Positions 227 through 30,526 of a stretch of DNA of 40,696 nt are shown in pieces (the first letter of the stretch is position 1; each line of letters opens with the position of its first letter). Location of the stretch: the NCBI GenBank assembly GCA_017478625.1, contig JAFVDF010000012.1, positions 1 through 40,696 of the forward strand, written 5' to 3'. Position numbers and translations under genes: made by a program. The notes under the pieces are model-generated. The model made no database searches. It saw only the letters and a program-made list of their open reading frames with translations, and was not told where the DNA came from. The stretch comes from Alloprevotella sp. (GTDB taxonomy: Bacteria; Bacteroidota; Bacteroidia; Bacteroidales; Bacteroidaceae).

Positions 227-3200
227 ATGCCTTACAGCAAAATAGTGACGCTGCGCAATATGCGTCCAGCATACAATATCAAAGAAGAAAGTCAGGGAGA
301 ATGGAAATCGTTCATCGCCAATGACCAGTTCAACGACATATTGATGAAAACCATCCGTGCTGTACGCAACAATGATGCCGACACGCACAAGTCGATATGG
401 ATAGCAGGAACTTACGGCACAGGAAAGTCTCACGCAGGAGCTGTGATCCAGCATTTGCTTTGCGACCCCGTGGATGACATCCGTGAGTATGTGGAGGAAG
501 AATATCAGAAGTCTAAGTACGACATTCTGCGTGACTCGTTGCTGCAACTTCGCAAAACAAAGCGGCTCTTTCCTGTAAACATGTATGGACAGCAAAGCAT
601 AGCACACGAGGAAGACCTTTCGCTACAACTGCAAAGGGAAATCAAACGTTCTTTGATAGCTGCAGGAATAGACATTACCGTGCAAACAGACTTCGACATG
701 TATGTGCAGCACATAGAAAGTCAGCCACAGTTCTGGGAGAACCTGGTAGCGCAGAACGCACAGTTAGAGAGTGTGGCGCCAGATGTTCACAAACTGAAAC
801 AGAGGTTGACGGCTGCAGATACAGACGTGCTGGACTATGTGCGCCAAGCCCTGCGCAAAGGCGGCTATGACATCCGCTTGCAGAGCAACAACCTGAAGCA
901 ATGGATATTTGAGGTGCAGAATGCGCTACGTGAAAAGACCGCCTACAACGGCCTGCTAATTATCTGGGACGAGTTCACAGAGGTAATGACATCCGTTATC
1001 GGTACACGGCTATTGGTGCAACTTCAGGAAATATCTGAGGCTATGATGAACGATGAGAATGACTCCTACTTCCTGTTTATCTCTCATCCGTCTGCCCTAA
1101 ACTCATTGAAAGAAGAAGAGCGTGAAAAGACTAAAGGCCGCTATCACTATGTTATATATAACATGGAACCCGTTTCGGCATTCAAGATTATGTCGAAGAA
1201 GTTCAAGATAGTGAACTACACGCTCTACATGATGCGCCAGGAGCGTTTCTTTGGCATCCATCCTGAGCTACTCGACTTGTTTAGCTCTGCCAGTGCCGAT
1301 GCCGAACAAACCAAGGAGAACATCCAGAACCTCTTCCCCCTGCATCCCTGTACAGCTAACCTTGCCACCTACTATGCCCGTGAGGCCGGATCCAGCAGTC
1401 GAAGTGTGTTTGAGTTTATCGCCAGCGACTCCGTAAGGGCATTCTTGGACGACGAGGAGGCCTATAATCAGGACCGCACCATTACGGCTGACTATCTGTG
1501 GGACTATGTGCAGGAGTATTTCGAAAGCGATGCTGCAAAGTTTGGTGCCGTAACGGAACGCTACAACAGCCATCATCTTTCAGTGGAAAGCCAAGGAGAA
1601 AACCATCTTAAGGTGTTTAAGGGCATACTGCTACTGAATGCTCTTAACAATATTGCCAATAGTGATACCGTGACTCCAAGCACGGAGAATATAGAGAACC
1701 TCTTCTTAGGAACAGAAGTAGAAGGCCAGTTGGAAGAAATTCTCGACTTCTTCAACGATAAGAGTATCATTCAGCGTCAGCCCAATGGTAACTTCTCCAT
1801 CCTCTTCACCGCTCTGCCAGGCAATGAGATTCAGAAAATCAAGGAGCAGCTGAAAGCCTCCAGTTTCCTCTATACTGATCAAGTCATCAAGTTTGGCACT
1901 ACGGCTGAGAACATCTTCATGAGGAACTTCTCGCAAGTGGCTCGTCCTTTCAGCTTCCAATTCTTCAGTATCCAAGGCAACGAATACACGCTGATGAACC
2001 GCATAGAAAATGCCAAGCGGATGGCACAGCCCTACGAGACATTCATGGCCATTATGGTAGGTCGTGACACTCAAGAACTGATACAGTTGAAGGACATTGC
2101 AGAAAGGAATAGTGGAGATGAGCGCTATCAGGCAATTGCCTTCGTAGTGATGGAAACAGCCATGGGCACGAAAGAATATGAACGGTTTATAGAGTATCAG
2201 GCTAATGCCCAGGTTGCCCAGAGCCATAACCTGCCCCAGCAGCACCAGACATACACCAAGCAGGCATCAGAGATGATACAACAATGGGTGAACAGTATGC
2301 GAGGCAAAAATGTGACATTCTACCTGAATGGAGAGAGCATGACCATCGTAGGCAGCAAGATGACCAGTACTATCAACGCTGCCATTGCTCCTGCCATATT
2401 CACTTCTGGTCCGGAATCATTGGAGTCTATCAGGATCAAGAGCAGCACCACCTATTGGAAGAAAGCATCTGTGAAGGCAACGGTGGATGCCGTGCTGAAC
2501 TACAATACAAAACAGGACATTCTGGACCGTTGTGGCGGTCCGGCGCGCCATGTGGAGTTCCTGTTGCAAGACAGCGTAGACGACAACCTGCAATGGAAAG
2601 ACACCGTCTCGCCCAAGCATCCGCTGAAGTTGGTATGCGACTACGTGGACGAGTGGCTTAGCGGACGACATACCAGCAAGAACCAAAGCTTCAATCTGGG
2701 CGAGAAGCTGATAGGTCTGACGGAACCGCCTTTTGGATTGTTCCAGAGCTATGCACCTATGGCTATGGTAGCGTTTGCTATGCGGAAATATGTCAATGTC
2801 ATCTTCGACACCAACGGTAAGCAGCGTACAGCTCAGCATCTGGTGGACGACGTAGTGGAACTGTTCAAAGCATGGGAGAGCGGCAAGAACAGCAATAAGC
2901 TGAACTTCATCTTCGAGAGTAAAGAGGCAGGTCGCGTGAGCAAGAGCCTCATCAGGATGTTTGGACTCAATAAGCTGAAAGGCTATTCCGACATCAGCAG
3001 CCTGAAAGATGCCCGTTGGGCAGTTCTCCACGTTTATTCGAAAGAGAAGGGTTACCCCCTGTGGTCGCTGAAATATACAGAAGACTGTACAGGCGACATG
3101 AAGGAGTTTATCGACAACCTGATGAAGGTGGTGACAGACCCAGAGAGCATGAAGAATCCTCGCTTGCTGGAGGCCACCATTAACGGATATGACATGTTGA

Positions 3201-3640
3201 AAACTGACTTCGGTAACCTGCTGCTGCTTCAGGAAGACAACTTCCGGAAAGGATTTGTGACTTACATGAAGGGCGTTGAAATCGTAAACGTGAAAAACGA
3301 GGAAGTGGAGGCTGCCATCAAGTATCTGCACGGACACTTGGAAAGCGAAGTGGGTATGTGGACCGAAGAGGAAGTAAAGGACAAACTGAAAGACTGGCGA
3401 ATGACTACGATTCAGCCCGTGACACCTGTGATTCCTCCAGTTATGCCCATACCGCCCACAACCGTTCCTGGGATGCATCCAGTTCAACCTGTGCCAGTAA
3501 TCAGCCCTGATGACTTGAAGAAGAAACGCAACAAAGCCATCAACCGAGTGAACAATACTGACGACCTGCGTCAGGCTATTGAGAACATGATCAATGCAGA
3601 AGACAGTAACGTGATTGATATTCTGTTGAAATATGTATAA
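227..3640 (+). CDS. brxC: BREX system ATPase BrxC-like
   Basis: A large P-loop ATPase of 1137 residues. Walker A is GTYGTGKS at residues 61-68 and Walker B is LLIIWDEF at 243-250. The long remainder is typical of BrxC/PglY proteins, which are essential for BREX phage defence although their reaction is not settled. A proline-rich linker spans about residues 1062-1088 (repeated P-V/I-P and P-P steps) and precedes a short helical tail, perhaps a docking segment. The stop overlaps the pglZ start by 8 nt, so translation is probably coupled. The neighbouring PglZ and BrxL-type genes support the BREX call strongly. The BREX subtype is inferred from gene order only. A 424-residue antisense frame lies inside it and is a shadow. 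Confidence 0.82.
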   Translation: MPYSKIVTLRNMRPAYNIKEESQGEWKSFIANDQFNDILMKTIRAVRNNDADTHKSIWIAGTYGTGKSHAGAVIQHLLCDPVDDIREYVEEEYQKSKYDILRDSLLQLRKTKRLFPVNMYGQQSIAHEEDLSLQLQREIKRSLIAAGIDITVQTDFDMYVQHIESQPQFWENLVAQNAQLESVAPDVHKLKQRLTAADTDVLDYVRQALRKGGYDIRLQSNNLKQWIFEVQNALREKTAYNGLLIIWDEFTEVMTSVIGTRLLVQLQEISEAMMNDENDSYFLFISHPSALNSLKEEEREKTKGRYHYVIYNMEPVSAFKIMSKKFKIVNYTLYMMRQERFFGIHPELLDLFSSASADAEQTKENIQNLFPLHPCTANLATYYAREAGSSSRSVFEFIASDSVRAFLDDEEAYNQDRTITADYLWDYVQEYFESDAAKFGAVTERYNSHHLSVESQGENHLKVFKGILLLNALNNIANSDTVTPSTENIENLFLGTEVEGQLEEILDFFNDKSIIQRQPNGNFSILFTALPGNEIQKIKEQLKASSFLYTDQVIKFGTTAENIFMRNFSQVARPFSFQFFSIQGNEYTLMNRIENAKRMAQPYETFMAIMVGRDTQELIQLKDIAERNSGDERYQAIAFVVMETAMGTKEYERFIEYQANAQVAQSHNLPQQHQTYTKQASEMIQQWVNSMRGKNVTFYLNGESMTIVGSKMTSTINAAIAPAIFTSGPESLESIRIKSSTTYWKKASVKATVDAVLNYNTKQDILDRCGGPARHVEFLLQDSVDDNLQWKDTVSPKHPLKLVCDYVDEWLSGRHTSKNQSFNLGEKLIGLTEPPFGLFQSYAPMAMVAFAMRKYVNVIFDTNGKQRTAQHLVDDVVELFKAWESGKNSNKLNFIFESKEAGRVSKSLIRMFGLNKLKGYSDISSLKDARWAVLHVYSKEKGYPLWSLKYTEDCTGDMKEFIDNLMKVVTDPESMKNPRLLEATINGYDMLKTDFGNLLLLQEDNFRKGFVTYMKGVEIVNVKNEEVEAAIKYLHGHLESEVGMWTEEEVKDKLKDWRMTTIQPVTPVIPPVMPIPPTTVPGMHPVQPVPVISPDDLKKKRNKAINRVNNTDDLRQAIENMINAEDSNVIDILLKYV

Positions 3641-6053
3641 GGAACCGTTCAGAGATATTGAAGTCCTGAAGCAGTATGTGGAAGAGGACAAACAGGCAAA
3701 GGGCGTGGGGGCAGCAACGCTCGACCGCTATCCTATACGCTTTGTGCTGTTCGACAACTTCCGCGACTGCTACGACTTTGTAGATTATCTGCAAAGCGAA
3801 CGAGGAGCCCATGTGGAGAGCGTTGACAGGTGGATAGATTCCAACTATCCCGACCTGATGATTACCCATGTGGAACTGGCAGAGAGAATACAGGAGCACA
3901 TCAAAAAGAAAAGTCCACACGACTGCGTGATAGCCCCTTTCTCTGAACTTGCTCGTTTCTATGACAACGACGAGAAAAAATCGTTTGATGCGTTGCTGAA
4001 GACCATCAAGGCCATACAGGCAAGTAGCGAAGGTGTGGAAAGCCATCAGCGTGTCTATATCCCGTTGGTTGGACTGGAAGGCAAGATGGAAGCCTTCAAA
4101 GAGGACACACAAATCAATATCTGGCGGCTATTATCGAAAGAGAAAGACCTGACCTATAAGCTGATACTGACCAACCAAAATGATTTCGGAGTGAAAGGCT
4201 TGGAGGCAAACTACACCATTGTTAACGATATTCGCGAATGGCTGAACATCTGGAAAGACAGCAAGCAGCAGGTATCTCCACAGATTATCTGCAAGTCGCG
4301 TTCTATCTACGCCAATGCTGTGTATGCACAGCCCGATAATGCTTTCAGCTATGAGACCTGTCGAAATGCTTACGAGTTCTTGGCTCATGGGTTGGGGCTG
4401 AACTTTGGAGGCCTACAACCGCTGATGAGCGACGGCAACAACTGGGAGCTGTTGGCAGAGGAGATAGATGTCAGCAAAGGTTTTAGTTTCCCCAAATTCG
4501 TAAAACAGCATTTCGGTATCGACGATATAGAAAACTATAAGGATTTTATTCGTCTCTGGTTCAGTCATCCGAGTATCTTCGACCGATGGCTGTTGGCCCG
4601 CTACTACAACAATAAGGAAAACGGTCAGGGATACCTGTGCCGGGTATTGAAAGCAACAACCAATTATGGGACGAATGAGCTGATAGAGGCGATGGCAGGA
4701 GATATATCCGAGAATACCGCTGAGATGGACATTCGCCGTTATTGCCTGAAATATGCAGCCCAGCAGAACGTGTTGCTTACCGAAGTTGCCGAGAGTATGG
4801 TAGCAAGGATGTTGCAAGCGCTTCCTGAGAAGATGGGATATACAAGCGCTCTGCGATACTTTACAGGCATCACTCGTAAGGAGAAGGAATTTGCATTGCA
4901 GTGGTTGGGCAATGGCAAGATTCGGGCTGACGAGTTGGAGAATTTCTATCCAGACCTGTATTGTTATGCTGCAGATGGAATCGGAATCAGCGCAGGAGTG
5001 CCAGATTGGTTGACTGACTATATCGAAAAGTATAAACGTGCAAAGTTGGCTAATCGTTATAGCGAAGAAATCAGCCAAAGCATACAGAGCTTGAATGAGA
5101 CAGAATCGAAGTTCGACCTGTGGTATAACAGTTTCAGTACTGTTTACACTTTACTGAAAAACCGAGGAGACATCGAGGTGTTCTACTGGATTGACGGTCT
5201 GGGCATTGACTGGATACCATTGGTGAAACAAATCGTAGCAGAGCACAAAGAACAGCAAATCTACCTGAATGAAGTTAAGATAGCAAGAGCCAAGCTGCCA
5301 ACAAAAACCGACATCAACAAGACGGAATTGCAACGACTTCTACCTGAAGGACAGACGTTGGAGAAGTTTGGGGATTTGGATGCCCAGGCACATCGCACCG
5401 ACAACATCAGTCCCTTTACGATTATTAAGGAGATTGAACTGGTAAGAAAGAGTATAGAGGATATTCTGCAACTATATATTGGAAAGAAAATAGCCATTAT
5501 CTCTGACCACGGGCTTACATATCTTTCACAATTAGTCAGCGGGAAGAACCTTACCGGAGTTGAAAGCGATCATCACGGGCGCATTGCCATCAGGAAGAAA
5601 GCAGGAGTGGATGCTGACAGCAGTTACTTCCGTTTGGAGGACGGTAAAACACTCTGTGCCCTAAAGCATGAGTCACTATGCTCAAAGGTGCCAACCAATC
5701 AAGGTGCGCATGGAGGATGCACTCCAGAAGAAGTTTTGGTACCCATTTTCATTATCAGTAGTGCGCCAGCACCGACCAATTGGTCTGCACAACTTCTTAC
5801 ATACGAGATAAGCGGTTCCAACCCAAGGGCACAGATAGAAATCAAGAATCTTCCATCTACTGACGTACCCCACGTTATATATAATGGTAGAACCTATCAA
5901 CTGCATAATCTTGAAGGGGATATTTATGAGACCGATGATTTAATCCTTGATGTGAATTGCCAGAATATGTCATTGAACATAGGAGACGTAGAACGACCGA
6001 TGCGGATAAAGGTGAGCACGGGAGTTCAGGAAGAAGACTTATTTGGATTTTAA
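3633..6053 (+). CDS. pglZ: BREX alkaline-phosphatase-fold protein PglZ
   Basis: An 806-residue PglZ-domain protein. The alkaline-phosphatase-superfamily core is in the C-terminal half: YWIDGLG with metal-ligand-type D521, ISDHG with D625/H626, and the signature GAHGGCTPEEVLVPI from G691, which is characteristic of PglZ. Residues 1-500 form a mostly helical N-terminal region without a motif I recognise. PglZ is a core BREX component, thought to act on a phosphodiester or nucleotide, though its substrate is uncertain. It starts inside the end of brxC (8-nt overlap) and stops 14 nt before brxL, so the three genes form one transcription unit. The fold call is firm; the type 4 assignment rests on context. 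Confidence 0.85.
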   Translation: MYKEPFRDIEVLKQYVEEDKQAKGVGAATLDRYPIRFVLFDNFRDCYDFVDYLQSERGAHVESVDRWIDSNYPDLMITHVELAERIQEHIKKKSPHDCVIAPFSELARFYDNDEKKSFDALLKTIKAIQASSEGVESHQRVYIPLVGLEGKMEAFKEDTQINIWRLLSKEKDLTYKLILTNQNDFGVKGLEANYTIVNDIREWLNIWKDSKQQVSPQIICKSRSIYANAVYAQPDNAFSYETCRNAYEFLAHGLGLNFGGLQPLMSDGNNWELLAEEIDVSKGFSFPKFVKQHFGIDDIENYKDFIRLWFSHPSIFDRWLLARYYNNKENGQGYLCRVLKATTNYGTNELIEAMAGDISENTAEMDIRRYCLKYAAQQNVLLTEVAESMVARMLQALPEKMGYTSALRYFTGITRKEKEFALQWLGNGKIRADELENFYPDLYCYAADGIGISAGVPDWLTDYIEKYKRAKLANRYSEEISQSIQSLNETESKFDLWYNSFSTVYTLLKNRGDIEVFYWIDGLGIDWIPLVKQIVAEHKEQQIYLNEVKIARAKLPTKTDINKTELQRLLPEGQTLEKFGDLDAQAHRTDNISPFTIIKEIELVRKSIEDILQLYIGKKIAIISDHGLTYLSQLVSGKNLTGVESDHHGRIAIRKKAGVDADSSYFRLEDGKTLCALKHESLCSKVPTNQGAHGGCTPEEVLVPIFIISSAPAPTNWSAQLLTYEISGSNPRAQIEIKNLPSTDVPHVIYNGRTYQLHNLEGDIYETDDLILDVNCQNMSLNIGDVERPMRIKVSTGVQEEDLFGF

Positions 6054-6067
6054 ACTGGAGTTGACTT

Positions 6068-7531
6068 ATGAAAGAAGATATTTGCAATAAAATCAGGCAG
6101 CACTTTTCTGCTATGTCTATCTACAAAGACCCTGCTTCTACAGGCACTCTGTTTGCAGGGCGTAACCTTCCAGCCTTCGTGAAGGACTTCTTGTTGAAGC
6201 GTTATCTGAATGTACAGACGGGAGAAATAGACAAATTGGCGCTGACGCAATTTCTTGACAAGGTGATTCCCTCACAACAAGGAATTGTGAAAGATCGTTT
6301 GCAAAGTGGTGAAGAAGTGACGTTGCTTGCACGCTTCATGGTGTACATCGACATCGTGAAGAATGAACGTCAGTTTGCAATACCTGATTACGGCATTAAG
6401 TTGCGTGAAGGCATCATTCCTGAATATGTCTATTCAAAGAATTCTGGTGATTTTGTTGACGGAGAGCGTTGGGGCATCATCAAACTGTGCCTTCTGCCAG
6501 ATAGTAATGGAAAGACAAGTCATATCCAGATGGTTGACTATAAGGCATTCAAGCCCTATAGTTCTGTGGATGTAGGGTATTTGGCAGATGCGCGTCAGTA
6601 CTTTACAACACAAGAGTGGATAGACGTGCTGCTTTCTGCAATGGAGTATGACCCTGATGGATTCGCGTCATTGACTCAGAAGTTGGAGTTTCTTACCCGT
6701 CTTTTGATATTTATTGAACCAAGACTGAACGTAATAGAGTTAGCCCCCAAGGGTACAGGTAAAAGCTATGTATTCGGCAACTTGTCAAAATATGGCTGGC
6801 TGGTTAGCGGTGGTAAGGTAACACGTGCAAAATTGTTCTTTGACAAGGCGAAGCAGCAGAATGGTATTATTAAGAATCATGATTTTACCGTGTTCGACGA
6901 GATACAGACCATCGTTTTCCAGGAGCCAGCAGAAATACAAGCGGCCTTGAAATCATATTTGGAAAGCGGAAAGACAACCATCGATAATAACGAGTTTACT
7001 TCAGAATGTGGACTGATGTTGATGGGTAATATACCTTTGTCTGCTCATAATGTACCAATTTCTCAGATGTATTTCGATAATCTGCCAAAGAACTTCCGAG
7101 AGTCTGCGCTATTAGACAGATTCCATTGTTTTATCGAGGGCTGGCTGTTGCCTCGTGTCGATAAAAGTATGATATTCAAAGGGTGGACTATCAATGTGGA
7201 GTATTTCTCGGAGATTCTTCATGCTATGCGGACGCAGAACACTTACGGACTGCTCTTCGATCAACTGGTTAAGTTTGAGGAGAAAGCAGATGTCCGTGAC
7301 AGCAATGCCATCAAACGCATCGCAACGGCCTATATGAAGCTTCTTTTCCCCCATTGGCATAGGCTGGAGGATGTTAACGAAGACGAGTTCCGCATATATT
7401 GTCTTGAACCTGCTGTTCATAGGCGTGGCATCGTGAAAACTCAATGTCATAACATCGATCCTGAGTTCAAAACGCGTATGCCACTTGTAGACATAGTAGA
7501 GCGAGGGTTTACGGAAAACAAACTTTTCTGA
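6068..7531 (+). CDS. brxL: BREX BrxL-like AAA+ protein, short form without Lon protease domain
   Basis: A 487-residue AAA+ protein. Walker A is PKGTGKS at residues 227-233, Walker B is FTVFDE at 273-278, a sensor-1-like MGN lies near residue 320 and an arginine-finger-like LLDRF near 350. This matches the BrxL/Lon-like family, which in BREX acts with BrxC and PglZ and, in studied members, forms DNA-binding ring assemblies. The protein ends about 30 residues after the conserved CLEPA-RRG segment. The Ser-Lys Lon protease domain found in about 680-residue BrxL proteins is absent, and no downstream frame encodes it. It is therefore either a naturally short subfamily or an old truncation. Last gene of the visible BREX operon. 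Confidence 0.8.
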   Translation: MKEDICNKIRQHFSAMSIYKDPASTGTLFAGRNLPAFVKDFLLKRYLNVQTGEIDKLALTQFLDKVIPSQQGIVKDRLQSGEEVTLLARFMVYIDIVKNERQFAIPDYGIKLREGIIPEYVYSKNSGDFVDGERWGIIKLCLLPDSNGKTSHIQMVDYKAFKPYSSVDVGYLADARQYFTTQEWIDVLLSAMEYDPDGFASLTQKLEFLTRLLIFIEPRLNVIELAPKGTGKSYVFGNLSKYGWLVSGGKVTRAKLFFDKAKQQNGIIKNHDFTVFDEIQTIVFQEPAEIQAALKSYLESGKTTIDNNEFTSECGLMLMGNIPLSAHNVPISQMYFDNLPKNFRESALLDRFHCFIEGWLLPRVDKSMIFKGWTINVEYFSEILHAMRTQNTYGLLFDQLVKFEEKADVRDSNAIKRIATAYMKLLFPHWHRLEDVNEDEFRIYCLEPAVHRRGIVKTQCHNIDPEFKTRMPLVDIVERGFTENKLF

Positions 7532-7730: not shown

Positions 7731-7786
7731 TTTCACAGTGTGAAATATGCAGTTCACACTGTGAAATTCCCGTTTCACACTGTGAA
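7731..7786. repeat. Array A: three TTCACA-S-TGTGAA palindromes at 21-bp pitch
   Basis: Three 13-bp perfect palindromes, TTCACA-N-TGTGAA, are centred at 7738 (centre G), 7759 (C) and 7780 (C). Spacing is exactly 21 bp, two turns of B-DNA, so the sites lie on one face of the helix. The 8-bp spacers differ in sequence. A box ATAGGGCT follows, starting 19 bp after the last centre. The same structure, order and spacing recur at 29722-29777. Twofold symmetric sites in phase suggest cooperative binding of a dimeric protein; no such protein is identified here. Confidence 0.9.
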
Positions 7787-7812
7787 CTTACATTTAGCAT
7801 AGGGCTGTATTC

Positions 7813-28722: not shown

Positions 28723-29604
28723 ATGCAGTTCTCCCAGCCTGAAAATACTGGACATATACAGTCTGACGCTCCCATTATGTTGATAGAGCGCCTGGGCCAG
28801 TTGTACACCACTATGAGCCGGGTACGTATGAAAGAGTACATTTCCGCCGGAAGAGTGGAAGTAGATGGGCGTGTGTGTCGTAAGGCCACGGCATTAGTGG
28901 ATAGGCGTGCGCGAGTGAAGATTCTGTCCAAACCTCAGACGCGACCTTATGTCGGCCGTGGTTTGGATTGGCTGTGGGAAGACAGGTGGCTCATCTTTGT
29001 CGTCAAGCACAGTGGACTGCTCTCTGCGCCTAATCGGGAGGGAGAACTGAGTGCTAAGACTTTGTTGGACCAATACTTTGACCGCACACATCAGCGTTGC
29101 AGGGCTCACGTGGTGCATCGGCTGGATAAGGAGACTTCAGGTGTGATGGTTTTTGCCAAGCAGATAGAGGCAGAACGCCGTTTGGAGTCGGCCTGGCACG
29201 AGCATGTCGTAGATAGGCGTTATGTGGCATTGGTTTCTCAGCCACCGGTACGGCGAGAGGGTACGGTAATCAGTTGGCTGAAAGAGAACAGTGCCTATTT
29301 AGTATATTCTTCGCCCACCGATAATGGAGGAAAGCGTGCGGTTACCCATTACAAAGTGATTGACAGCAGGCTGCCACAGGGGCGTGCACTTATAGAACTG
29401 AAACTTGAAACGGGTCGAAAAAATCAAATCCGCGTCCATCTGAGCGATTTGGGCTGTCCGGTCTGTGGGGACTATAAGTATGGAAGTCAGGAGGACCCGG
29501 AAAACAGGCTTTGCCTGCACGCTTTCCGCTTGCAACTGCGTCATCCCATAACAGGCGAAATACTTTCTTTTGAAACCCCACTACCGCGCTGGGGGCGTGG
29601 GTAG
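28723..29604 (+). CDS. RluA-family 23S/tRNA pseudouridine synthase
   Basis: A 293-residue enzyme that isomerises uridine in RNA. The catalytic aspartate is D135 in VHRLDKETSGVMVFAK. An S4-like RNA-binding segment lies at about 19-70 (MSRVRMKEYISAGRVEVDGR) and the C-terminal PI-TGE-LSFETPLP tail is typical. The target base (RluA, RluC, RluD or other) cannot be set from sequence alone. It is the only plus-strand gene between 7531 and the right edge, transcribed against the minus-strand neighbours on both sides. The downstream gap holds the second palindrome array. Confidence 0.9.
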   Translation: MQFSQPENTGHIQSDAPIMLIERLGQLYTTMSRVRMKEYISAGRVEVDGRVCRKATALVDRRARVKILSKPQTRPYVGRGLDWLWEDRWLIFVVKHSGLLSAPNREGELSAKTLLDQYFDRTHQRCRAHVVHRLDKETSGVMVFAKQIEAERRLESAWHEHVVDRRYVALVSQPPVRREGTVISWLKENSAYLVYSSPTDNGGKRAVTHYKVIDSRLPQGRALIELKLETGRKNQIRVHLSDLGCPVCGDYKYGSQEDPENRLCLHAFRLQLRHPITGEILSFETPLPRWGRG

Positions 29605-29721
29605 GCTGTTCGATTCAGAACATTATGCGATAGTGGGATACTGACCTCCCTTTTCTTCATAGTATAATGCAGTGCGGACATAGTCCGTTCTAATCCAGCG
29701 CCATCATATTGCTGTTTTGTA

Positions 29722-29777
29722 TTTCACAGTGTGAAATTTGAGTTTCACACTGTGAAATATAAAGTTCACACTGTGAA
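29722..29777. repeat. Array B: three TTCACA-S-TGTGAA palindromes at 21-bp pitch
   Basis: The palindromes are centred at 29729 (centre G), 29750 (C) and 29771 (C): same 13-bp core, same 21-bp pitch and same centre-base order as array A, with different spacers. A box ATAGGGCTAT starts 19 bp after the last centre (29790), as in array A, and a related perfect palindrome ATAGGCCTAT lies exactly 21 bp further at 29811. It sits between convergent genes and before a bidirectional terminator. On the minus strand it reads through as short 7-residue repeats in a spurious frame. Confidence 0.9.
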
Positions 29778-29823
29778 CTGGAAAATCGGATAGGGCTATC
29801 TGCAAACGGAATAGGCCTATTGT

Positions 29824-29867
29824 AAAAGCAGAGCGTGCTACATACGGATGTAACACGCTCTGCTTTT
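29824..29867. terminator. Strong bidirectional terminator
   Basis: AAAAGCAGAGCGTG (29824-29837) pairs with CACGCTCTGCTTTT (29854-29867), 14 bp; after a C-A mismatch five more pairs (TACAT/ATGTA) close a 4-nt loop. Four T residues end the stem on each strand. It serves both the pseudouridine synthase gene and the convergent small-protein operon, whose last stop is 29 nt away. Confidence 0.82.
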
Positions 29868-29895: not shown

Positions 29896-30141
29896 TTATT
29901 TGCGTCGTTTGAATCTTTTACGCAGTCGCCACAGGGGAACCGCTATTTTTGAGGCTTGCAGTGCGTAGGTAAGTGTGGAAGCAATGCGCTCGGAGAAGCG
30001 GAGCGTCCGTTTCTCTTTTTTGAACAGACTGTGGGTCTGGCGTTGCAGGAAATAGTTTTCTTGCAATAGCTGTGCTTCTAATTCCTGCCTGCGTTGCAGG
30101 AGTTGCTGGCGAGCATTTTTCTGCGTGCGGTTCTTAGCCAT
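29896..30141 (-). CDS. Small basic hypothetical protein
   Basis: About 81 residues, rich in Arg, Lys and Gln, with a coiled-coil-like helix (RQQLLQRRQELEAQLLQENY) and a C-terminal run of basic residues ending RLRKRFKRRK. I do not recognise a family. It overlaps the 3' end of the holin-like gene by 8 nt if it starts at 30141 and is the last gene of the YtxH operon, so a role near the membrane with its neighbours is possible. It ends just before the strong terminator. Confidence 0.7.
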   Translation of the reverse strand: MAKNRTQKNARQQLLQRRQELEAQLLQENYFLQRQTHSLFKKEKRTLRFSERIASTLTYALQASKIAVPLWRLRKRFKRRK

Positions 30142-30526
30142 TGTTCTCATTGTTTATGATTTCTGTGGCATTGTCAGAATCTGTGGCCTCTGCTTTGCCC
30201 TCAAGCGGATATAAGGCTCTGATGATAGGCCCCAGGAAGATGCGATTGCGCAGCACTATGAGAATTGCGAGCAACAGAAGCCAACAGCCTCCTACCACAA
30301 GGAATGCTCCACCGTAGCCTATGACTTTGGCCAGTAAGAAGGCGCAACCTATGGATATGAAGATAATCACAATGAATCCGAAGAGGAAAGCCAGCAAAGC
30401 ACAGATTAGCCCAGTCAGCAGGAGTGAGCCTTTGTCCACAAGGTCTATCTTGGCTAATTCCAAGCGTAGGTTGAGGGTTTTCAGCAAGCTTTTAGAGAGT
30501 GATGTGACAGATTCTTTGCTCAGCAT
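30134..30526 (-). CDS. Holin-X-like (phage holin superfamily III) membrane protein
   Basis: A 130-residue protein with two hydrophobic helical hairpins at about residues 33-66 and 71-92, an N-terminal amphipathic helix with a conserved KIDLVDKG segment, and a charged tail. Families of this kind are chromosomal envelope proteins in Bacteroidetes and Actinobacteria as well as phage holins; nothing else here is phage-like, so a housekeeping stress or envelope role is more likely than lysis. It lies between the YtxH gene (48 nt upstream) and the basic hypothetical protein. Confidence 0.78.
   Translation of the reverse strand: MLSKESVTSLSKSLLKTLNLRLELAKIDLVDKGSLLLTGLICALLAFLFGFIVIIFISIGCAFLLAKVIGYGGAFLVVGGCWLLLLAILIVLRNRIFLGPIIRALYPLEGKAEATDSDNATEIINNENNG

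Follow-up and report, generated by a model that had tools for sequence, protein, structure and literature searches.

Phased palindrome arrays at conserved chromosomal positions in Alloprevotella as candidate sites of sequence-specific HU-fusion proteins

Dispersed short palindromes recognized by one architectural DNA-binding protein are known from the terminus macrodomain of Escherichia coli, where matS sites are bound by MatP, and tens of palindromes scattered over the chromosome serve SlmA and Noc as nucleoid-occlusion sites. Among other architectural proteins, HU shows little sequence preference and IHF uses asymmetric sites. In this report, we describe palindrome arrays found in a stretch of Alloprevotella sp. 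DNA (assembly GCA_017478625.1, contig JAFVDF010000012.1, positions 1 to 40,696; hereafter the window, 40,696 nucleotides in all) and follow them through the window's own assembly (G000; 1.26 Mb, 59% complete), its nearest relative as judged by one protein (G051; 72%, the genome being 77% complete) and other members of the genus, 58 genomes being covered in the genus-wide searches. Like matS, these arrays are dispersed short palindromes with one candidate architectural reader; unlike the single matS sites, they are phased arrays of three or more, they extend over long stretches that in one relative (G072) include dnaA instead of being confined to the terminus, several families occur in one genome while the core varies between species, and the candidate reader belongs to the HU superfamily. 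This candidate, an HU-HIG protein, shares an HU domain (PF18291, PF00216) with HU and IHF, whereas in the present case palindromes at fixed pitch would be recognized by a fused winged helix. The sites of SlmA and Noc are likewise scattered palindromes but differ from the phased arrays and from the even ladder of G051, and the folds of SlmA and Noc are of another kind. The arrays resemble REP/BIME–RAYT systems in being numerous intergenic palindromic repeats of species-specific sequence, and differ from them in occupying orthologous positions, in combining conserved sites with drifting spacers and in the absence of a RAYT match in G000, G051 and G043. We consider it probable (roughly 0.6) that the array studied here (locus B) and its counterparts are sites of sequence-specific HU-fusion architectural proteins, and that protein specificity and sites co-evolve.

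The features of the window on which the analysis rests are the following.

28723..29604, plus strand: RNA pseudouridylate synthase gene (PF00849), left neighbour and positional anchor of locus B; G051 ortholog 74%.
29701..29715: degraded unit of a second array type (beta), centre 29708, -21 from core 1 (from the profile and a palindromic triple with start 29708).
29723..29735, no strand: core palindrome 1, TTCACAGTGTGAA, centre 29729, middle base G (from sequence).
29744..29756, no strand: core palindrome 2, TTCACACTGTGAA, centre 29750, middle base C (from sequence).
29765..29777, no strand: core palindrome 3, TTCACACTGTGAA, centre 29771, middle base C (from sequence).
29785..29799: degraded beta unit, centre 29792, +21 from core 3, containing the ATAGGGCT box (register from the 38-array profile).
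29806..29820: degraded beta unit (ATAGGCCTAT), centre 29813, +42 from core 3 (from sequence and array profile).
29824..29867: terminator-type hairpin (AAAAGCAGAGCGTG...CACGCTCTGCTTTT), adjoining the array and outside the element (read by eye).
30134..30526, minus strand: holin-superfamily-like gene (PF07332), right anchor of locus B; G051 ortholog 55%.
7732..7786, no strand: twin array (locus A), cores at 7732, 7753 and 7774, downstream of BREX genes.
7794..7808, no strand: degraded beta unit of locus A, centre 7801, containing ATAGGGCT (from sequence and profile).

Locus B consists of three exact TTCACASTGTGAA palindromes at a pitch of exactly 21 bp (29723–29777), so that the centres and the G, C, C order of middle bases given in the original prediction are exact, and its twin lies at 7732–7786 as described. 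Motif triples scoring at least 36 of 39 form two arrays in the window at pitch 21 and none at pitches 18–20 or 22–24. The box that the prediction placed 19 bp past the third centre does begin there at both loci (7799 and 29790), and the further palindrome it reported beyond the box is present at 29810–29821 as AATAGGCCTATT; within the window, TTCACANTGTGAA was found eight times with at most two mismatches against 2.33 expected. Compared with the beta consensus ATTGCATWATGCAAT, the flank units of locus B reach a mean score of 8.5 of 15. BREX genes (BrxC, PglZ and BrxL) were annotated by PADLOC at 227–7531 of the window, and locus A lies 201 bp past brxL.

Throughout G000, 104 exact cores were counted in 1.26 Mb, compared with none for the reversed pattern. 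They make up at least 41 loci, and we examined the 41 formed by 100 of the sites, the last four being left out; counting sites of at least 10/13, three cores are present in 38 of the 41 loci, two cores in two and a single core in one. When the 38 arrays with three cores were superposed by their middle core and symmetrised, RKTTCACASTGTGAAMY emerged as the core unit. In this profile core and pitch are conserved and spacers drift, as had been anticipated for an alignment of genomic copies, yet a pyrimidine–purine step is kept at the spacer midpoint, half a pitch from each core. Thus the idea of a defined dispersed element stands for sites and pitch across the 41 or more loci and fails for the ATAGGGCT box: only 4 of 41 loci, including the two in the window itself, have ATAGGGC at 70 bp or less from their cores, and it is therefore not a fixed part of the element. 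In the flanks, weaker CATWATG palindromes keep to the 21-bp register, with centres at 42, 63 and 84 bp; they fade outward and match the beta type, ATTGCATWATGCAAT, found intact elsewhere. Scored against beta over 40 loci (all but locus A), flank units reach 7.4 of 15 and out-of-register controls 4.2. The ATAGGGCT and ATAGGCCTAT boxes are degraded beta units in 21-bp register. The core palindromes are separated by gaps of 8 bp and mostly come in threes, which sets them apart from the identical repeats and spacers of tens of bases of a CRISPR array. Five or six 21-bp units around TCGTTATG were also seen in G000 (L153 5391–5495, equal to C10:195391–195495); being neither core nor beta type, they possibly represent a further family.

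The gene setting of these loci bears on whether the arrays are three-operator promoters in the regulon of an ordinary global transcription factor. No open reading frame of at least 80 aa overlaps 36 of the 41 loci, which lie in 14 co-directional, 11 convergent and 11 divergent gaps; the other five are overlapped by open reading frames of 249–411 bp and were not classed. A convergent gap beyond a terminator, as predicted from the two window loci, is accordingly not supported as the general setting. The operators of such a regulon would be palindromic, as the cores are, and the candidate reader gene adjoins an array of its own kind, which would also fit a plain transcription factor beside its own operator. 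However, the sites do not all lie upstream of genes, 11 of the 36 classed loci being convergent, and together with the regular spacing in G051 this makes the regulon quite unlikely.

The same places carry other letters in the relatives. Within the genus, the core doublet with up to three mismatches was found in 2 of 58 genomes, G000 and G043, and a strict palindromic-triple scan overlooked most relatives because their cores differ. In G051, the gap orthologous to locus B carries three palindromes at 21-bp spacing with another core, TTYCARGSCYTGRAA, which occurs at 14 places with three cores each (13 of 13 among the arrays listed). When the G000 loci were mapped through their neighbour genes onto a 310-kb stretch of G051, 19 of 41 could be placed, and for 18 of these 19 the predicted orthologous place has a G051 array no more than 95 bp away, with the TTTCAAGSCTTGAAA core in 10 and intact beta in 8; displaced predictions met an array in 0–1 of 19 cases, and locus A was the sole placeable locus lacking one. 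Flank units around 13 new-core G051 arrays score 6.1 against beta (4.0 for out-of-register controls), and the beta remnants at G000 cores score 8.0 where G051 keeps beta versus 7.1 elsewhere (one-sided p = 0.04). In G043, arrays hold four TTCACA-type cores set in register inside units of what, by eye, is a third palindrome, approximately CTGTCAGSCTGACAG; the eight G043 arrays have edges common to all and spacers common to six of the eight. Since orthologous places carry different cores, and new cores sit inside older in-register units, the array positions are older than the cores. These comparisons indicate that a second, older array type (beta) underlies the present core arrays, and that new cores, differing between species, have evidently replaced the middle of older arrays with the register kept.

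This positional record weighs against REP/BIME or MITE-type repeats moved by a transposase. The many dispersed intergenic copies would suit such elements, one clear DDE transposase fragment and one below cut-off lie near G072 arrays, and the array-bearing G072, G061 and G022 have one Y1 transposase each. But insertions at places varying between species were not what we found: 18 of 19 positions are conserved, with different sequence, and spacers differ among copies. In addition, the Y1 transposase of RAYT type (PF01797) has no match in G000, G051, G043, G046 and G042 (G000 and G051 being the least complete of these five) or in G048 and G015, one each in G072, G061, G022 and G073, and two in the array-poor G003. 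RAYT was thus discarded as a partner, its presence being uncorrelated with the arrays, and we regard mobile repeats of this kind as extremely improbable. The two DDE fragments (the clear one at L101 14148–14612, the one below cut-off at L099 4294–4824) both adjoin rare-family arrays of G072.

The spacing of the arrays was most regular in G051. A 310-kb stretch on contig C4 carries 27 arrays of both types together at a mean spacing of 11.3 kb (range 5.0–19.7, CV 0.34); with places drawn at random among intergenic gaps the CV averaged 0.91–0.97 (sd 0.17), and none of 20,000 such permutations was as even. One shuffled G051 sequence contained no array of either type, G051 at pitches 20, 22 and 25 yielded no beta array, and 16 of the 27 array centres are clear of open reading frames of at least 80 aa under a crude mask. 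The spacing in G000 has a CV of 0.65 on contig C14 and 0.31 on C10. The 600 kb of G072 yield 24 peaks for lag 21 and 32 for lag 22, while every remaining lag in the range 15–29 has 0–1; two or three of the peaks are probably coding repeats. Several array families with different palindromes are present there, odd palindromes going mostly with lag 21 and even ones with lag 22 when read by eye (an array of G061, L067, is an exception). The G072 spacing is less even (CV 0.64 over 200 kb and 0.78 over 600 kb, with peak-free gaps of 24–46 kb), and its peaks extend from 5 kb to 598 kb of contig C6, beyond dnaA at 566 kb. No array at lags 21 or 22 was found in 214 kb of G003, and in 241 kb from 20 stretches of other families of the order there was no excess, lag 21 having two peaks, lag 22 one and the other lags 0–4.

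Such a distribution is also informative about centromere or terminus marks of the ParB, Noc or MatP type. A 13-bp palindrome with a central S resembles the geometry of parS, KorB sites and matS, and array density is high around the GC-skew switch on contig C4 of G051. A mark of the terminus only, which this switch had prompted us to consider, was rejected in view of the G072 peaks over 600 kb including dnaA. ParB (PF02195) matches once per genome in 10 of 12 and not at all in the incomplete G000 and G051, so it is single copy with or without many arrays, while G072 has several families; with copy number uncorrelated with the number of site families, ParB was rejected as the reader, and marks of this whole class seem very improbable. 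A dif-like 28-mer (L032 2935, minus strand) directly adjoins a core array close to where the terminus probably lies; dif-like matches are weak (21/28 to an E. coli dif sequence) and were set aside. The only contig-database matches came from two contigs of an Elusimicrobia metagenome-assembled genome. There, two or three TTCACASTGTGAA sites at 21 bp precede what seems by eye to be a sigma-54-like promoter (L005 1168–1201, L006 2728–2782); the sites likewise look like NtrC-type activator sites upstream of a -24/-12-like element, and one lies just past an open reading frame with a Fis-type helix-turn-helix at its end. Sigma-54 enhancer sites were dismissed as unrelated; in the Elusimicrobia genome this palindrome and its pitch have been put to use independently.

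A candidate reader came from the genes beside the arrays. Ten neighbour genes of G072 arrays have no common family, but one encodes an HU-HIG protein, and all five HU-HIG genes found in the 600 kb of G072 lie within about 250 bp of an array. One of the five was found as an array neighbour, two came from a paralog list and two from a model of these first three HU-like genes, which added one strong and one weak match in the 600 kb. In the stretches of G000 and G051 the same model picked up a single gene per genome; these two are orthologs, and both lie within about 250 bp of a core array. The G000 gene (C14:117252–117884) encodes a 210-aa product and starts 125 bp from its core array; it is the one long HU-HIG gene of G000, and G003 has none. 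G072, with 30 HU-HIG matches, has the most among the 58 genomes. A second long HU-HIG gene of G051 (C15, HU-Ig) has its own three-unit 22-bp array of AAGTATACTT type about 105 bp upstream, whereas three canonical 90-aa HU genes are 1.7–2.3 kb from the nearest array. Upstream of the C15 gene, three CGGMAAGTATACTTYCGG-type units at L226 827–890 were noted as a further G051 type.

At the protein level, the HU domain PF18291 exceeds its cut-off in G000 (E 4.6e-16), G051 (5.5e-16) and G072 (C6:314862; 6.3e-23), and NCBIfam HU_rel matches all five proteins tested, two of them over its cut-off. The C-terminal segment of the G000 protein (residues 149–210) reads by eye as a winged helix-turn-helix, and the G051 protein matches Pfam DIP2311-like_C at E 1.5e-4, below cut-off. 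In both G022 and G046, an array on another contig of the genome shares its core with the array that precedes the HU-HIG gene, and the array beside the G072 gene C4:83214 carries the core of family F5. The HU-HIG loci of G007 and G019 are 86% identical, and between them all four upstream palindromes differ in the centre in a similar manner. The G000/G051 HU-HIG pair is 48% identical, the seventh lowest among 108 ortholog pairs with a median of 74%. Within the presumed recognition helix, His is found in G000 and G043, both with the TTCACA core, and Arg in G051; over three sequences, this difference may offer a lead. The linkage of gene and array is thus observed directly, and HU-HIG proteins are likely candidates for the array reader, whose binding we infer from gene linkage.

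The HU-HIG/array link is partial across the genus, so that the suggestion of a DNA-binding protein co-occurring with the motif is borne out beside the arrays of G072 (5/5), G000 and G051 and only in part beyond them. Among 30 HU-HIG loci from the genus, the threshold for lags 21/22 is passed by 15 (8 at lag 21 and 10 at lag 22, other lags 0–4). Several of these are simple repeats or lack palindromes, and we count only seven as clear palindromic arrays next to the gene. Because 4 of 11 RhlE control loci also pass at lag 21, and one at lag 22, only lag 22 (10/30) is raised at HU-HIG loci. If the scan is narrowed to some 400 bp upstream of the gene, two remain at lag 21, four at lag 22 and one at lag 18, with zero at the rest. 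Of two G061 HU-HIG loci, neither has an array of the known G061 core and one has no palindromic array; the second (L229 1876–1985, C41) has five near-identical 22-bp units, TTTTCCTCATGAAGAAAA, about 690 bp off, with a core unlike that of the other array of this genome. One of two G043 loci has no array and the other is at a contig edge, and G073, G048 and G015 have HU-HIG genes with no clear palindromic array in the 40–54 kb sampled. For beta, which is the most frequent array type of G051, the incomplete G000 and G051 assemblies revealed no reader.

Together, these observations can be arranged into a model in which each array is a row of palindromes of about 13–17 bp at two-helical-turn pitch (21 bp, or 22 bp in other families); given this pitch, we propose that dimers of one protein line up along a single face of the DNA. 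The winged helix of the HU-HIG protein would read the palindrome and its HU domain would bend the flexible spacer step, and dimers stacked at two-turn pitch may form a short rigid complex, so that the array would act as an architectural peg at which the nucleoid is pinned, bent or bridged at intervals. The indifference of the arrays to gene direction in G000 and their even spacing of about 11 kb in G051 point to such an architectural job instead of gene-by-gene regulation. When the specificity of the protein shifts, or another family takes over, the array centre would be rewritten in the old 21-bp register with its position kept. We further entertain, at somewhat less than even odds, a stronger form of this model: a fixed ladder of anchors, spaced at roughly 10 kb, in which position survives longer than sequence and successive HU-winged-helix proteins rewrite the array centres in 21-bp register, leaving layers of older specificities around the current one.

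Rewriting could also serve the arrays alone. Successive HU-HIG families may have spread by overwriting older array centres, through ectopic gene conversion or active homing, with little use to the cell. New cores stand mid-array among older in-register units in G000 and G051 and, by eye, in G043; the eight G043 arrays with common edges, six of them with common spacers, look as copies would; and a 140-aa HU-HIG frame occurs many times over in G072. On C5 and C6 of that genome, the frame of about 140 aa is repeated a dozen or so times (for example C6:214142, 472767, 831540 and 862531); two that were read (214097 and 472764) are nearly identical and adjoin arrays of one family, and such frames are perhaps a mobile unit of HU-HIG gene plus array. 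The even G051 spacing, the conserved positions and, in G000, cores that are strictly kept while spacers drift suggest that the arrays are of use, however, and no recombinase or nuclease partner was noticed; we judge selfish arrays rather unlikely.

A use other than architecture would be self-marking in a conflict system, in which HU-HIG separates the cell's own chromosome, with an array about every 10 kb, from incoming array-free DNA, and the fast change of specificity reflects an arms race with mobile elements. The even spacing, with no gap above 20 kb on G051 C4, the rapid change of the reader (48% in the G000/G051 pair), the several array families and 30 HU-HIG matches of G072 and the position of locus A next to BREX genes agree with it, and Burroughs et al. 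2017 reportedly proposed a tie between the expansion of HU-HIG and mobile elements. On the other hand, the G000 HU-HIG protein has no PADLOC match, and G072 has peak-free gaps of 24–46 kb, so that self-marking appears somewhat unlikely to us. Viral contigs gave no exact matches to the core and beta doublets, which fits this and the other readings alike.

The reading we prefer, arrays as sites of HU-fusion architectural proteins, extends what is on record. HU-HIG itself is a named and already known Pfam family. No description of its target sites or of such arrays was found in the literature searched, as far as the available parts of those sources go, PMC5771137 included. HU-HIG is reportedly expanded in Bacteroidetes, with a proposed role against mobile elements (Burroughs et al. 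2017); we know of no functional test of the subfamily, and of no bacterial system with a ladder of such regularity. If our main reading is true, a little-studied subfamily of HU proteins would gain a concrete DNA target. Specific architectural sites would then seem, in some bacteria, to mark out the chromosome at near-regular distances, and the in-place rewriting at many loci, with position and pitch kept, would be an unusual record of protein–DNA co-evolution. The question of what sets chromosome domains of roughly 10 kb would then become testable by sequence in this genus.
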